In this document: piece after piece, positions 10,108-17,441 of the stretch
Position numbering within the stretch: the stretch's first letter is position 1
Layout of the letters: each line of letters begins with the position of its first letter
Assembly (NCBI GenBank): GCA_011390205.1
Contig: JAABSX010000041.1
Location: 1 to 37,481, forward strand
Origin: Microscillaceae bacterium
Lineage (GTDB): Bacteria > Bacteroidota > Bacteroidia > Cytophagales > Microscillaceae
Direction of reading: 5' to 3'
DNA: 37,481 nt
The notes under the pieces: model-generated
Database searches by the model: none
The model's input: the letters and a program-made list of their open reading frames with translations, nothing else
What the model was told of the DNA's origin: nothing
Program-made: the position numbers and the translations under genes

Positions 10108-10713
10108 ATGCTTATGGATAAAAAAGACATTTACATAGAAAAATCTTTACGACAATTTTTAAAATATGGAATCAAAAGTGTTACCATCGGCGACATAGCC
10201 CAGCACCTCAATATCTCTACCAAAACGATTTATAAGTTATTCGGTGATAAAACAGGCTTGGTGCATGCTTGCTTGGCACTAGACCAAAAGATAATCGCTG
10301 ATACTTACGAAAAAATCCTTAAAAATGAAGCACTCATGATGGCTTTGATAGCCTTTTATAATGAACTCGTCAATCGTATCTCTAGGGTAAACCCCAATTA
10401 TTTTAATGATTTAAAAAACTACTTCCCCGAAGAATGGGAAAAAATAACACAGCATAGCATAGAACAAATCAAGATTTTATTAGAAAAGGGAAAATCTCAC
10501 GGCTTTTTTTACCAAAACCTAGACAAGGAAGTAGTAGCACAGACCCTAAGCCTCCTTGTAGGGGCGATGCTAGATGACCATACTTTTACACAATACATCC
10601 CCAACCGCCGACAGCTTTCTGCCAATATCATCTACCCTTACCTGAGAGGCATCTGCACCCGCAAAGGCTGGGAAGAGGTCAGACAATACCTCTCCAAGGC
10701 CATAATGCTTTGA
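10108..10713 (+). CDS. TetR family transcriptional regulator
   Basis: The frame opens at 10069, but that start lies inside the thioesterase gene. ATG at 10108 or 10114 is more likely and gives about 200 residues beginning M(LM)DKKDIYIEKS. The N-terminal helix-turn-helix is clear: LRQFLKYGIKSVTIGDIAQ, then ISTKTIYKLFGDKTGLVHACL. The remainder is the ligand-binding part. Placement after an acyl-CoA dehydrogenase, ligase and thioesterase suggests an acyl-CoA or fatty-acid-responsive regulator of this block, by analogy with FadR/PsrA-type TetR proteins. I do not see its operator. Confidence 0.85.
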   Translation: MLMDKKDIYIEKSLRQFLKYGIKSVTIGDIAQHLNISTKTIYKLFGDKTGLVHACLALDQKIIADTYEKILKNEALMMALIAFYNELVNRISRVNPNYFNDLKNYFPEEWEKITQHSIEQIKILLEKGKSHGFFYQNLDKEVVAQTLSLLVGAMLDDHTFTQYIPNRRQLSANIIYPYLRGICTRKGWEEVRQYLSKAIML

Positions 10714-10763
10714 GCACAAAGCCTGTCATCAGAAGATAAGAGCATCAAACTCCTACAAAGGGA

Positions 10764-10779
10764 GGCATTTTAAAATGCC
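10764..10779. repeat. 16-bp perfect palindrome
   Basis: GGCATTTTAAAATGCC is a perfect palindrome between the TetR gene and the lipoprotein gene. It has no spacer and no following U-tract. It may be a protein-binding dyad or the core of a weak terminator followed by an A-tract. Confidence 0.4.
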
Positions 10780-10833
10780 AAAAAAAAGAACTAACTTGCA
10801 TCTTAAAATTATACAAACTCACTGTATCTCGAA

Positions 10834-11853
10834 ATGAAACAAAGTATTTATTATTTATTTTTAGGAACACTCCTTTTATTGAATGCCTGTGGCAGCAACA
10901 ACAGCCAGAAATCTACCCAAAATCTACTTAACTATGCCCCAGGCTCTATGGCCCAGGCTGCTAGTTTTGACCCAGATTTTGAAAAAGAATTTGTGGCAAA
11001 CTTTAAAGTAGCAGCCCTACCCTATGGCACAGACACTAGCTACGCCCTGCAAGATACCATCCCTGCCGATATTGCCATTAAATATATCTTAGAAGCCGCC
11101 GAAAAAGCCCAAATCAATGCCTTCAAAGATGTATGGGGAGATACCGAAACCCAAGAAATGACCCGAAAAGGACTCAAAGACAGATACATCAGTGTAGAAA
11201 ATAGTGCCTTCGCTGTCATTAATTTTGGGCAAGGAGCAAGGCTGCAACTTAGCCAAAACTATCACTCCTTCGTGTTTCATTATATCCCTACTTTTATGGA
11301 CGGACGCTACAAATATAGCTTCTTGGCAAATTATACGGCAGAAGGAAAACTTATAGATGTGCTGCCCATAAGTGAGCTGGCTCAGTTTGTAGATATGGAA
11401 AATATCCAAACTGCCCACATCAATAAAGAAGGAGGCATCGAGGTACATACACAGCTCATCAGATACGGACAAATGTATGACCACCCCGAAGATTATGAAG
11501 AAACTGGCACACAGACCTTTGTGATAGACCAAGAAGGGAAGTTTATCCTTCAGCAAGAACAATATTCTAGCTTCTCAGGTAAATTCCTTGCCAAAACAGA
11601 CTCCGAACTGACCGCCCCCCGATTCTTGATTGAGCAGCTATTTGAGGATACACAAGTACGCTACCAAGCCAGTGCAGACTCAAGCCCTCAAGAATGGGAA
11701 ATCATCCGAATCAACAAAGAAAAAAATGAACTTGTTGCCAGAAAACCTGGCAGTAGCCAAGATTATACCCTCAGCTACGACAAAGCCAAAGCTACCTTCG
11801 TCTGCAAAAATAGCAAGGGAGAAAAGACAAATTATACGAGAGTGAGAGATTAA
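10834..11853 (+). CDS. lipoprotein of unknown function
   Basis: A lipoprotein signal peptide ends in LLLLNAC, so Cys19 should be lipidated and the 321-residue mature part anchored to a membrane, probably the outer one. I do not recognise the family. The mature part alternates strand-like, aromatic-rich segments (for example YHSFVFHYIPTFMDGRYKYSFLANYTAEGKLIDVLPI) that are compatible with a beta-rich fold, and it contains no catalytic motif I can identify. It precedes the DUF262-HEPN pair by 18 nt, but its GC-richer codon use (many GCC and ACC codons) differs from theirs. The two are therefore unlikely to share an origin. Confidence 0.8.
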   Translation: MKQSIYYLFLGTLLLLNACGSNNSQKSTQNLLNYAPGSMAQAASFDPDFEKEFVANFKVAALPYGTDTSYALQDTIPADIAIKYILEAAEKAQINAFKDVWGDTETQEMTRKGLKDRYISVENSAFAVINFGQGARLQLSQNYHSFVFHYIPTFMDGRYKYSFLANYTAEGKLIDVLPISELAQFVDMENIQTAHINKEGGIEVHTQLIRYGQMYDHPEDYEETGTQTFVIDQEGKFILQQEQYSSFSGKFLAKTDSELTAPRFLIEQLFEDTQVRYQASADSSPQEWEIIRINKEKNELVARKPGSSQDYTLSYDKAKATFVCKNSKGEKTNYTRVRD

Positions 11854-11871
11854 TGATTAAACCATCATAAA

Positions 11872-13002
11872 ATGGAAACTTTAGCTATACAAGAGGATAA
11901 TTTAGAAAAAGAAATATCCAAAGAAAGAAGTCGTCTATCTAGCGACCGCATGGATATTTCTTTTGGAGAGATTATAAATTTATATAAAAACAAAGAATTA
12001 ATTATCCGCCCAGAATATCAAAGACTTTACAGGTGGAATGATTTTCAAAAAACAGCACTTATTGAGTCCATTTTATTAGGAATACCTATTCCTCCTATTT
12101 TTGTGTCAGAAGATGAAAATGGAATATGGGAATTAGTAGATGGATTGCAAAGAGTAACTACATTCATTAGTTTCTTTGGTGAACTTGATGAGAATGACTT
12201 TAACTTGCAAGCTACCCCTGAAAATAACGATGATGAAGAATATAACCTACTTAACAAGTGGATACTTAAGGCAGGTAGTCTAGTAGAAAACTTAGAAGGT
12301 TTTGATATAGATACTTTACCCAAAAAATATACGATTAATCTGAAAAGAGCCGTCTGTAGGGTAGAAATTCTGAGAGGTGAGAGTAATACATTCATGAAAT
12401 ACGAACTCTTCAAAAGATTAAACGCTGGTGGTACTAAAGCAAATCCACAAGAAATTCGTAATGCTATTTATCGTCAATTTGATACCAGATTGAATAATCT
12501 TTTGGAGGAACTTAGTCAAAATGAGCTATTTAAAAAACTAACCAAGTTAAGTGAAAAGAAACAACGTGAACTATATGATCAAGAGTTAGTACTAAGATTT
12601 ATAGCTTTTGTCAATAATATAGAAAATATCAATGAAAATACTGAAAATTTTTTAGATCTCTTCATGGAGCAAGCCGTCAAAAATAAACATTTTGAGTATG
12701 ACGAATATCAATCACTTTTTAAAGAAGTATTAGGAATTATAGATTCATTGGGAGATGAAAATGTTTTTCGCAACGAAAGTAAAAGTTTTGTACCAGCTCT
12801 ATATGAAGGAATAACAATAGGAGTAGCACAAAATTTAGCAATCTATCGAGAAAGTATTGAATTACTAAGGAAAAAAATCGCAGAACTTAAAAAAGATGAT
12901 GATTTTAAAAAGTTTTCTGGCTCTGCCTCCAATAGCCGAAGTAGAATCAAAAAAAGACTGTCTAGAGCGAGTGCTATTTTTCAAAATCCATCGGTAGATT
13001 AA
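11872..13002 (+). CDS. DUF262 domain protein
   Basis: The N-terminal part is a DUF262 domain: PEYQRLYRW at residues 47-55, IPIPPIFV at 71-78 and the DGLQR motif at 90-94. DUF262 is related to the ParB/sulfiredoxin nucleotide-hydrolysing fold. It occurs as the N-terminal half of GmrSD-type modification-dependent restriction enzymes and in other defence proteins. This protein has 376 residues and no visible GmrD HNH half. Its C-terminal 200 residues are mostly helical and charged. It lies 9 nt upstream of a HEPN gene and shares with it a low GC content compared with both flanks, suggesting a transferred two-gene cassette. Toxic or defensive activity is inferred. Confidence 0.85.
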   Translation: METLAIQEDNLEKEISKERSRLSSDRMDISFGEIINLYKNKELIIRPEYQRLYRWNDFQKTALIESILLGIPIPPIFVSEDENGIWELVDGLQRVTTFISFFGELDENDFNLQATPENNDDEEYNLLNKWILKAGSLVENLEGFDIDTLPKKYTINLKRAVCRVEILRGESNTFMKYELFKRLNAGGTKANPQEIRNAIYRQFDTRLNNLLEELSQNELFKKLTKLSEKKQRELYDQELVLRFIAFVNNIENINENTENFLDLFMEQAVKNKHFEYDEYQSLFKEVLGIIDSLGDENVFRNESKSFVPALYEGITIGVAQNLAIYRESIELLRKKIAELKKDDDFKKFSGSASNSRSRIKKRLSRASAIFQNPSVD

Positions 13003-13011
13003 GATAAAAAC

Positions 13012-13692
13012 ATGCTAGACTTTGAACAAGCCCTGCTTGAGCAAATAGAAGAAAGAGAAAACATACTATTTGAGATAGAAAAAGTCATCTTCACAAAGAG
13101 ATATAAACTTTCTCAAAAACATTTTAATATCTTTTCTGTGCAATCTATCACAATGATTTATGCTGTTTGGGAAGGCTTTATTCAGAAATCTTGTCAATTA
13201 TATATTGAGAAAATCAATTCATTAGAAATTAAATTTGAAAATCTGAGTGATGAGATTCAGGTTTTTCATCTTGAAAATACTTTCAAACAATTCAAACAAT
13301 ATCCAGAAAAAAAGCAAAAGAAAGTTAAATTCTATACTGAACTAGCAAGTTTTCATCAAATACCTATTCATCAAATACATGGTCAGATGCATACACAGAG
13401 TAATGTGAGCTTTGAAAACCTGAATATCATTTTAAGTGCGCTTTCACTAGAGCCTTTTAAAGAAAACTGGAGTGTTTATAATCATCCTAAACCAAATCTT
13501 AAAGAAAGTTTAAAGACTTTTTTGAGATATAGAAATGGAGTAGCACACGGAGGAGATGTAAGTGCAGAAGAAAAGGTAACACAAGAAGTCTATGAGAAGT
13601 ATCGTGATTTGGTAAGAAATCTGATGTATGAAATACATGATAGAATGTTATTGGGAATAAAAAATAAAACCTATTTAAGAAATGACGCTTAA
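13012..13692 (+). CDS. HEPN domain protein (MAE_28990/MAE_18760-like)
   Basis: This all-helical 226-residue protein has the HEPN RNase motif R-x4-H as R174-NGVA-H179, in the context YRNGVAHGG. An early helix carries VQSITMIYAVWEGFIQKSC, typical of the MAE_28990 type of HEPN protein. HEPN proteins commonly act as metal-independent RNases in toxin-antitoxin and anti-phage systems. The gene follows the DUF262 gene by 9 nt and overlaps the next gene by 11 nt, so the pair is embedded in a housekeeping transcript. The DUF262 protein may be the partner or regulator. RNase activity is inferred from the intact motif. Confidence 0.85.
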   Translation: MLDFEQALLEQIEERENILFEIEKVIFTKRYKLSQKHFNIFSVQSITMIYAVWEGFIQKSCQLYIEKINSLEIKFENLSDEIQVFHLENTFKQFKQYPEKKQKKVKFYTELASFHQIPIHQIHGQMHTQSNVSFENLNIILSALSLEPFKENWSVYNHPKPNLKESLKTFLRYRNGVAHGGDVSAEEKVTQEVYEKYRDLVRNLMYEIHDRMLLGIKNKTYLRNDA

Positions 13693-14182
13693 CACCGAAA
13701 AAAGTCCTTATATCCAAGATTATATGGAAGGCAATATTTGTTTTGGCTGTGGAAAAGACAACCCCGAAGGGCTACAAATCAAGAGCTACTGGGAAGAAGA
13801 TAAGTGTATTTGTATCTTTCAATCCGAAGAAAAATACCAAGGCTGGAAAAACCTCATGAATGGTGGAATCTTGGCAACACTTATAGACTGCCACACCATG
13901 GGTGCTGCCACCTCACACGCCTACCGCCAAGAAAATCGCTCTTATGACAGTGAGCCTACTTATCGCTATGCCACGGGGACACTCACTGTAAAGTATCTAA
14001 AGCCTACACCCAATACTGTGCCTATCAAAATCATGGCTCAAATCACAGAAGTAAAAGGACGGAAGACGACCATGCGTTGTGAAGCTTGGGCTGGGGATAT
14101 TTTGACAGCAGAAGCAGAAGTAGTTGCCATTAGAGTGTTTGATAGCAGCCAAGCACACGGACAAAACCCTTTTCACGAATAA
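13682..14182 (+). CDS. PaaI family hotdog thioesterase
   Basis: This 166-residue hotdog-fold protein carries the family lead CFGCGKDNPEGL (Cys20, Cys23), followed by a MNGGILATLIDCHTMGAA helix with the Asp that is usual in PaaI-type active sites. A long strand segment (TGTLTVKYLKPTP) follows. It hydrolyses small acyl thioesters in related proteins, and the substrate here is unknown. Its start overlaps the HEPN gene by 11 nt, and rsmG follows 18 nt downstream, so all are likely to be on one transcript. It differs clearly in sequence from the thioesterase at 9674. Confidence 0.88.
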   Translation: MTLNTEKSPYIQDYMEGNICFGCGKDNPEGLQIKSYWEEDKCICIFQSEEKYQGWKNLMNGGILATLIDCHTMGAATSHAYRQENRSYDSEPTYRYATGTLTVKYLKPTPNTVPIKIMAQITEVKGRKTTMRCEAWAGDILTAEAEVVAIRVFDSSQAHGQNPFHE

Positions 14183-16009: not shown

Positions 16010-16483
16010 ATGACCCAAAAAACAGGCCCTTCTAAAAAACCCAAAGTACAAAATACTAAATTCCTAATTGGAAGCCTAGATTATGCCGACTTCCCTGAAT
16101 TTAATTTATTAGACATCGCTTGCAAAATAGATACAGGAGCACAGACTTCTGCCATACACTGTCATCGTATTAGATTGATAGAAGTAGAAGGCAAAGAAGT
16201 CATTGCTTTTAAGCTGCTTGACCCCTCTCACCGAGATTATGATGACAAAGAATACCGTACCTCCGTCTTTAATGAACGCAAAATACGCAGCTCCTCAGGG
16301 CATGCAGAGTACCGATATGTCATCACCACGGATATTATCTTGTTTGGAAAAGTCTTCAAGACTGAGTTTACGCTTGCTGACCGTGAACAGATGAAGTATC
16401 CCGTGCTCATTGGGCGAAGACTGCTCAAAGATGCTTTCATCGTAGATGTCTCCAAAAAAAATCTCTCTTACAAAGAAAAATAA
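16010..16483 (+). CDS. RimB-like retropepsin-type protease (RimK-associated)
   Basis: This 157-residue protein belongs to the RimK-associated ATP-dependent zinc protease group (formerly DUF785), with a single retropepsin-like Asp-protease fold. The active-site motif is [10 protein letters not shown], with Asp41-Thr42-Gly43. The end carries the family segment [18 protein letters not shown]. In Pseudomonas, RimB and RimK jointly control glutamylation of ribosomal protein S6, RimB removing the added glutamates. It is followed immediately by rimK (47 nt from stop to start), so the two are likely co-transcribed. S6 itself is encoded 3.3 kb to the right. Confidence 0.87.
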
Positions 16484-16529
16484 AAAAATCCTACACAAGG
16501 GTTTAACACCAACAAACAAACAACTTAAT

Positions 16530-17441
16530 ATGAAAATTGCTATTTTATCTCGCAATGAATCTCTATACTCTACCAAAAGACTTGTGGAGGCCATTCAGAC
16601 ACGAGGACACGAAGCCATAGTGATTGACCACGCCAAATGCCATCTTGTGATGGAGCAAGACTCTCCCAATGTATTCTTAGACAGTGATGAAATCACAGAC
16701 ATTGATGCCATCATCCCCAGAATAGGGGCTTCAGTTACTTTTTATGGAAGTGCAATCATACGGCAGTTTGAGGTCAGTAAAGTATTTACTACGCTCAGCT
16801 CTCTAGCACTGGTTCGCTCTCGTGATAAATTAAGGGCTTTACAGATTTTGGCACGCTCAGGCGTAGATATTCCTAAAACTGCCTTTGCCAAGCACCCAAG
16901 AGATATTTCTCACCTTATGAAACAAGTAGGAGGTGCTCCACTTGTCATCAAACTGCTGGAGGGTACGCAAGGGCTAGGTGTGGTATTGGCAGAAACAAAA
17001 ACAGCTGCAAAATCTGTTATGGAGGCTTTCTACGGACTCAATGCCAATATCTTGGTGCAAGAATTTATTAAAGAAGCAAAAGGTGCTGATGTCCGTGCAT
17101 TTGTAGTAGGTGGCCAAGTGGTTGGTGCTATGAAAAGACAGGGGCTAGAAGGTGAGTTTAGGTCCAATCTTCACAGAGGGGGGCAAGGTACTATCATCAA
17201 GCTGACACGAAATGAAAAAAGTACCGCAGTCAAGGCTGCCAAAGCATTGGGACTTGCCGTGGCAGGAGTAGATATGCTACAGTCAGAAAGAGGCCCACTG
17301 GTGATAGAAGTAAACTCCTCTCCAGGCTTGGAAGGCATAGAAAAAGCCACAGGAAAAGACATTGCAGGAGATATTATAAAATATATTGAGGACAATATCA
17401 AAGGAACTGACTCCAAAAACAGAGACAAAGTAGGAGTCTAG
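16530..17441 (+). CDS. rimK: ribosomal protein S6-L-glutamate ligase
   Basis: RimK is an ATP-grasp ligase that adds glutamates to the C-terminus of ribosomal protein S6. The start at 16530 ([14 protein letters not shown]) matches the family. The longer frame from 16446 would overlap the rimB-like gene and adds a non-conserved Lys-rich lead. ATP-grasp features are visible: the [11 protein letters not shown] loop, [20 protein letters not shown], and [22 protein letters not shown] near the end. The length of 303 residues is close to the E. coli protein. It is paired with RimB, and S6 encoded at 20726-21085 ends in Glu-Lys-Glu. Confidence 0.95.

Follow-up and report, generated by a model that had tools for sequence, protein, structure and literature searches.

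A conserved DUF262-HEPN gene pair among ordinary genes of a Microscillaceae bacterium, a probable PD-T4-2-like anti-phage cassette

In a 37,481-nucleotide stretch of Microscillaceae DNA (contig JAABSX010000041.1; hereafter the window), a gene for a DUF262 protein is directly followed by a gene for a HEPN protein, and we consider it probable, at roughly 70%, that the two form a mobile anti-phage cassette in which a GmrS-like DUF262 NTPase sensor switches a HEPN RNase, leading to abortive infection. The observations on which this reading is based are the gene content, the intact motifs, the linkage and co-divergence of the two genes, their spread, and their likeness to known proteins at the level of the fold.

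Gene content and motifs of the pair

The two genes and their immediate flanks are listed in Table 1. Using Pfam, the DUF262 protein was assigned a GmrSD_N domain (the same as DUF262) at residues 34 to 200 (8.1e-27), and beyond it zero families were found at E ≤ 0.1. At this threshold, the DUF1524 HNH/His-Me nuclease half was absent from both proteins, and Pfam detected no DNase domain in either, in agreement with the sequence-only reading of this DNA, which had noted a DUF262 protein without a visible nuclease half. The HEPN protein matched HEPN_MAE_28990 (3.1e-26) and HEPN_RiboL-PSP (9.1e-18), along with a sub-threshold match to DUF6641. For PF18737 (MAE_28990/MAE_18760-like HEPN), it scored 93.3 bits against a gathering cut-off of 26.8, with the match spanning profile positions 1 to 211 of 211. 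The active-site motif R-x4-H, which the earlier reading had placed at residues 174 and 179, was found intact in the HEPN ORF as R174-N-G-V-A-H179. The DUF262 protein contains QR (residues 50-51), DGLQR (90-94) and FxxxN (180-184); QR, DGxQR and FxxxN are motifs named for DUF262 proteins, the second of them being given as DGQQR in PMC12137116 compared to DGLQR here.

Table 1. Positions of the DUF262-HEPN pair and its immediate flanks in the window
Feature	Position	Strand	Length	Basis
Putative lipoprotein gene (upstream flank, host gene)	10834..11853	+		ORF; without Pfam family
DUF262/GmrSD_N gene	11872..13002	+	376 aa	ORF call, Pfam, PADLOC
MAE_28990/RiboL-PSP family HEPN gene	13012..13692	+	226 aa	ORF call, Pfam
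Overlap of HEPN 3' end and thioesterase start	13682..13692	+	11 nt	Sequence and ORFs
4HBT hotdog-fold thioesterase gene (downstream flank, host gene, outside the cassette)	13682..14182	+		Pfam

Linkage, co-divergence and spread of the two genes

The first scans of the sequence collections, with single proteins as query, returned zero relatives, and the HEPN protein had no match among plasmids. A HEPN-only search located 12 copies of the gene, spread over 11 of 95 other genomes, and in all 12 a DUF262 gene was directly upstream. Within the family the HEPN gene was patchy, being present in 7 of 14 other genomes. When a DUF262 alignment was the query, 311 matches were found in genomes and 151 in viruses, and the best 80 of each set were kept (79 loci in the viral case). 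Among these best matches, DUF262 was followed within 300 nt downstream by a HEPN gene at 76 of 80 genome loci. The viral count was 68 of 79, or 69 when a slightly larger overlap was allowed. These figures apply to the closer DUF262 relatives, and the viral loci include near-identical copies. Four genome loci had no HEPN call: one (L117) is at a contig edge with the start of the HEPN gene visible, and at the other three (L082, L097 and L125) no HEPN trace was found beside DUF262. DUF262-HEPN is thus a conserved two-gene unit. At one of the 12 places found with HEPN alone (L038, 5106-6326), a short DUF262 ORF (181 aa) precedes a HEPN ORF of full length, and this pair may be truncated or decayed.

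The two proteins have also diverged together, with a correlation between DUF262 and HEPN distances of r = 0.83 across 75 loci, the maximum of 2000 permutations being 0.16. In a quick DUF262 tree, the seven phylum groups needed 16 changes (minimum six; mean of shuffles 39.8), and 0 of 200 shuffles were as low as 16, so that the phyla are much more clustered than by chance; with the caveat that bins may contain stray contigs, this suggested movement between phyla, but not rampant movement. The well-supported set of 23 rows that includes the window contains Bacteroidota, Cyanobacteriota, Pseudomonadota, Thermodesulfobacteriota and others. Furthermore, the pair is carried by phages and prophages, including P2-like prophages of E. 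coli. The linkage, the occurrence in several phyla, the phage and prophage carriage, and the PADLOC matches of the DUF262 protein described below bear out the earlier proposal of a compact defense-type cassette, and the defense reading of the pair is well supported.

Conservation of the active sites was followed in two alignments. One contained the window HEPN protein and 74 of the 76 paired genome HEPN proteins (the short L087 and L142 were left out), and the other the window DUF262 protein and all 76 paired genome DUF262 proteins. R174 and H179 occurred together in 74 of 75 HEPN rows. All 75 had E54, and 72 had Y or F at residue 221; the invariant E54 (13171-13173) and the conserved C-terminal aromatic residue 221 (13672-13674) are features of this HEPN family beyond R-x4-H. 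In the DUF262 alignment, R51, D90, G91, Q93, F180 and N184 were found in 77 of 77 rows, R94 in 76 of 77, and Q50 was invariant. From its domain and motifs, the DUF262 protein is predicted to be an NTP-using ParB/Srx-fold sensor with an additional helical domain, and its partner is predicted to be an RNase effector; most HEPN domains are described as RNases (PMC3710099).

Predicted structures and the relation to toxins

Confident AF2 models were obtained, with pLDDT values of 90.8 for the HEPN protein and 87.9 for the DUF262 protein. Using VIA-align, the HEPN model matched the HEPN-MNT toxins 7ae6 (Z 8.1, rmsd 5.4, 143 aligned) and 7bxo (Z 7.6, rmsd 4.3, 130 aligned), Csm6 (8jh1; Z 6.5, rmsd 4.1, 122 aligned) and AbiV (9bj5; Z 6.5, rmsd 4.7, 119 aligned), scores that have to be read knowing that a Z near 8 can reflect an arrangement common for helical bundles and that absence from the fold lists is evidentially neutral. 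Since designed helical proteins (such as 8uao, Z 8.3) scored as high as these matches, the fold likeness is support for the HEPN assignment and no proof of it. The DUF262 model was matched to BrxU (7p9m; Z 8.2, rmsd 12.8, 281 aligned, chain residues 3-422) and SspE (7drs; Z 7.1, rmsd 17.1, 281 aligned), and the high rmsd values suggest that domain placement differs between these proteins and the model. BrxU was also the best Foldseek match of the DUF262 protein (E 1.3e-3), and neither model had a Foldseek match at E ≤ 0.001. When compared with PDB sequences, the HEPN protein had no match at E ≤ 1.

The presence of HEPN-MNT toxins among the top VIA-align rows, together with the close spacing and strict linkage of the genes, could be taken to indicate a toxin-antitoxin system, in which the HEPN RNase would be constitutively toxic and DUF262 would be an antitoxin that acts by direct binding, without phage sensing. 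The linkage data fit this and a sensor-effector pair alike. On the other hand, all NTP-site motifs are kept in the DUF262 protein, and these are needless for plain sequestration. Moreover, PD-T4-2, one of the closest known systems, is not among the systems that PMC9519451 names as TA-like. We therefore regard a plain toxin-antitoxin pair as rather unlikely.

Genomic context and base composition

The genes around the pair that were examined in the window were ordinary by Pfam, consistent with the earlier description of a pair embedded among housekeeping genes. They include an acyl-CoA dehydrogenase, an AMP-binding enzyme, 4HBT thioesterases, a TetR regulator and RsmG/GidB, as well as an S24-type regulator, Zn_protease and RimK. 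In the 16 window ORFs that were scanned, Pfam detected no DNA methyltransferase, integrase or transposase family at the cut-off; with such families missing and the neighbors ordinary, a defense-island context was rejected. No Rfam match was found in the window. At 16010-17441, the Zn_protease (PF05618) gene overlaps the RimK-like ATP-grasp gene, and these two might act together. The upstream protein, which had no Pfam match at E ≤ 0.1, has LLNAC at its N-terminus, which looks like a lipobox.

The spacing in this region is tight. The upstream gene ends 18 nt before the DUF262 start, the DUF262 and HEPN genes are separated by a 9-nt gap, and the HEPN stop codon (13690-13692) lies downstream of the thioesterase start (13682), so that the overlap between HEPN and thioesterase claimed earlier was borne out by the ORF coordinates. 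Translational coupling at this overlap is possible. The use of a host transcript, which had also been proposed, would fit the two gaps, the overlap, and a number of promoter-like sites that is not in excess (9 observed compared to 10.4 expected). Terminator-like sites were observed twice (2.8 expected), both on the minus strand. The Bacteroidota-type consensus TAnnTTTG had four plus-strand matches in 10601-13800, all within genes; one of them, inside the HEPN gene, has TTG upstream.

Two sequence elements in this region were considered and set aside. An imperfect 14-nt direct repeat at 11754 and 13711 brackets the pair, but as a trace of transposition it was judged to be chance, there being six direct-repeat families in 2.8 kb. 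The 5' end of the DUF262 gene (11907-11964) contains an inverted repeat whose 14-bp arms are perfect and enclose a 30-nt loop, and which folds well as RNA (z -2.8). A perfect inverted-repeat arm of at least 12 was seen in 1 of 76 relatives, and an arm of at least 14 in 8 of 594 background stretches; this hairpin was thus rejected as a conserved feature of the family.

The pair had been described as AT-rich compared with its flanks, and this was indeed the case. The GC content was 31.2% for the DUF262 gene and 29.8% for the HEPN gene, compared to a mean of 40.9% (sd 6.3) for 192 other ORFs. This background had a minimum ORF length of 150 aa and was drawn from the window and 20 sampled stretches, covering 282 kb of the 4.5-Mb genome. 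Eight of these 192 ORFs had a lower GC content than the DUF262 gene and five a lower one than the HEPN gene. Similarly, GC3 was 0.215 and 0.238, respectively, compared to 0.40 (sd 0.08), with 5 and 8 of the 192 ORFs below these values. Pairs elsewhere showed the same contrast with their own flanks: among 76 genome loci, 74 had the more AT-rich pair, with a median GC difference of -7.6 points, and among the viral loci all 69 did, with a median of -13.2. Because low GC is found in nearly all relatives' pairs, it cannot date the insertion in the window, and AT-richness was rejected as proof of recent import; low GC is a trait of the gene family and no clock for its arrival here.

Whether relatives keep the pair at this site was a point on which the sequence-only reading had hinged. 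Thioesterase homologues were found in 10 of 14 other family genomes, and none of these 10 had the pair in the 1.5 kb upstream; GidB was directly downstream of the thioesterase, as in the window, in 2 of the 10. Conversely, the stretches examined around the 12 pairs in relatives contained neither the lipoprotein gene of the window nor its thioesterase or GidB genes. Within the scope of these genomes, the outcome is in favor of the earlier reading. Homologues of the lipoprotein were present at 11 other places among the 95 other genomes, none of which is of the same genus, and at eight of these loci (L040-L047, 8.5-14 kb) neither a thioesterase nor a DUF262-HEPN pair was nearby. At L044 (5520-9929), the lipoprotein homologue is separated by 2.4 kb from a different DUF262 gene (31% identical) that has no adjoining HEPN match. 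The window's own genome has a second DUF262-like gene fragment at a contig edge (G000:C116:3-215, L002), 41% identical over residues 25-97.

For the 76 genome pairs, 69 downstream and 71 upstream neighbor genes were callable, and these were varied, with a maximum of three occurrences for any Pfam family. Many were ordinary (aminoacyl-tRNA synthetases, aconitase, release factor, glycine cleavage), some were restriction or mobile genes, and others had no Pfam match. The restriction and mobile genes included Eco57I methylases (3 of 71) and, among the 69 downstream neighbors, single N6 and C5 methylases, a YhcG-type nuclease and a transposase. Neighbors in family relatives included one SocA/Panacea antitoxin-like gene and one Schlafen/AlbA_2 protein. 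For viruses, the neighbor set was hand-picked (57), and its counts serve as a rough guide. At the 65 loci where both neighbors could be called, both were co-directional with the pair in 37 and both gaps were at most 100 nt in 5, showing that the tight two-sided fit in the window is unusual among relatives and no rule.

The tight, co-directional placement next to the thioesterase gene could mean that the pair was domesticated for a host function and is regulated together with lipid or thioesterase metabolism. This was already disfavored and we consider it highly improbable, given that the window's immediate flanks are missing around the 12 pairs in relatives, that neighbors elsewhere are varied, and that the HEPN gene is so unevenly distributed within the family.

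Methyltransferase genes near the pair

A regular expression for methyltransferase motifs, applied to flanks reaching at most 4 kb on either side, gave a match near 23 of the 69 viral pairs and 8 of the 76 genome pairs, compared to 1 of 40 control 6-kb stretches; the viral set includes near-copies, and the controls come from one genome and are somewhat smaller. In the three P2-like prophages of E. coli that were examined (L242-L244), a trio of genes sits between portal and replication genes: those for DUF262 and a HEPN-like nuclease and, convergent to them, one for a DNA cytosine methyltransferase. RefSeq also annotates DUF262 and HEPN side by side in E. coli.

These findings raise a restriction-modification-like alternative, in which the methyltransferase marks self and the pair reacts to unmarked DNA, the methyltransferase having been lost here or being located elsewhere. 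In addition to the viral count, near-copies included, and the adjoining convergent gene in the prophages, an operon with ParB nuclease and DNA methylase genes reported in PMC3710099 is in its favor. However, few of the genome pairs had a methyltransferase nearby, and none was among the scanned window genes. In one prophage (L243), the annotation marks the methyltransferase as frameshifted beside an intact DUF262-HEPN pair, from which it follows that the methyltransferase is probably not an obligatory antidote. We consider this alternative quite unlikely for the window.

Proposed mechanism

The simplest joint reading of these data would be that the DUF262 sensor gates the HEPN RNase. In the proposed cassette, DUF262 would be a GmrS-like sensor, with a ParB/Srx-fold NTPase domain and a helical domain and without the usual HNH nuclease, that likely senses phage nucleic acid or its modification. 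Binding or hydrolysis of NTP by DUF262 would then switch the HEPN partner. The HEPN ribonuclease would be silent in healthy cells and be released or activated upon infection, and the active enzyme would cut RNA and thereby stop phage production. The NTPase and RNase activities, the physical interaction of the proteins, the trigger and the abortive outcome are what we infer for the pair. There is precedent for such a switch, as GmrS-type DUF262 domains have an NTP-binding pocket and, in SspE, recognition of modified DNA leads to NTP hydrolysis and activation of the nuclease half (PMC10952713). The HEPN protein unmatched in PADLOC, the blank Foldseek result at E ≤ 0.001 and the neighbors that form no defense island count against the cassette reading.

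The same type of precedent could also argue for direct immunity, in which one type IV-like complex cuts phage transcripts or modified phage nucleic acid and the cell survives. The DUF262 systems GmrSD, BrxU and SspE act on modified DNA (PMC10952713), and the two-protein DUF262 system GrwAB requires both partners (PMC12137116). The lack of a Pfam DNase domain in both proteins speaks against direct immunity and makes it improbable in our view. PrrC cuts host tRNA. A PrrC-like role, which likewise does not favor survival of the cell by direct immunity, was argued for restriction-linked HEPN domains in a 2013 analysis (PMC3710099).

A more specific version of the cassette reading is possible, although we hold it tentatively: a type IV-like, modification-sensing DUF262 switch may have had its DNA-cutting half swapped for an RNA-cutting HEPN, so that it would respond to foreign or modified DNA by cutting RNA, and would travel as a bare 1.8-kb cassette that settles among ordinary chromosomal genes in many phyla. 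DUF262 NTPases gate a DNA nuclease elsewhere, and the question raised is whether, and via which phage signal, such a protein gates an RNase here. Our analysis adds an isolated chromosomal DUF262-HEPN pair without an adjoining methyltransferase, for which 76 genome and 69 viral companion pairs are available for comparison. It also suggests that cassettes among ordinary genes could escape searches confined to defense islands.

Comparison with known systems

DUF262-HEPN is an already known kind of gene pair, and the window contains a largely ordinary example of it. In PADLOC, the best defense-library match of the DUF262 protein was NsnA (3e-61, residues 19-371), a name under which the literature searched gave no defense paper, followed by PD-T4-2_A (1.9e-48, residues 33-371) and weaker matches to other DUF262 models. 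The HEPN protein was unmatched by PADLOC models, including PD-T4-2_B, in a search at E ≤ 1, in which HMMER discards most matches above about 0.1. PD-T4-2_B was matched by 1 of 55 viral HEPN partners (L221, 6e-4), these being the 69 viral HEPN proteins after 13 were dropped as near-duplicates with matching coordinates and one as short.

PD-T4-2 is a system of E. coli ECOR65 that confers protection on E. coli against T4, and T4 plaquing rose greatly when it was deleted from its native strain (Vassallo et al. 2022, PMC9519451). It is indexed under DUF262 and the PF18735 HEPN (PMC10952713). The window pair resembles it in having DUF262 and HEPN genes and in matching PD-T4-2_A over nearly the full length, whereas its DUF262 protein scores higher on NsnA. 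As the HEPN protein fails PD-T4-2_B, we classify the pair, judging by its sequence matches, as PD-T4-2-like and outside PD-T4-2 proper, a member of the DUF262 plus MAE_28990 HEPN kind. An operon link between MAE_28990 HEPN and a ParB-type partner was noted in silico by Anantharaman et al. (2013, PMC3710099), the only paper with the MAE_28990 name in the literature searched, in which two papers contain both DUF262 and HEPN. Those operons have the same HEPN family next to a 'ParB' nuclease, but DNA methylase genes are also mentioned for them, none of which is beside the window pair.

Type IV systems (GmrSD, BrxU, SspE, GrwAB and TgvAB) share with the window a DUF262 sensor with QR, DGxQR and FxxxN, and BrxU and SspE match it at the level of the fold; the systems have a DUF1524 HNH nuclease where the window has a HEPN gene. 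Finally, HEPN-MNT (HepT-MntA), Csm6 and AbiV share the HEPN fold, and HepT and Csm6 also carry the R-x4-H motif; they differ from the window protein in partner and sequence family, the match being one of fold.
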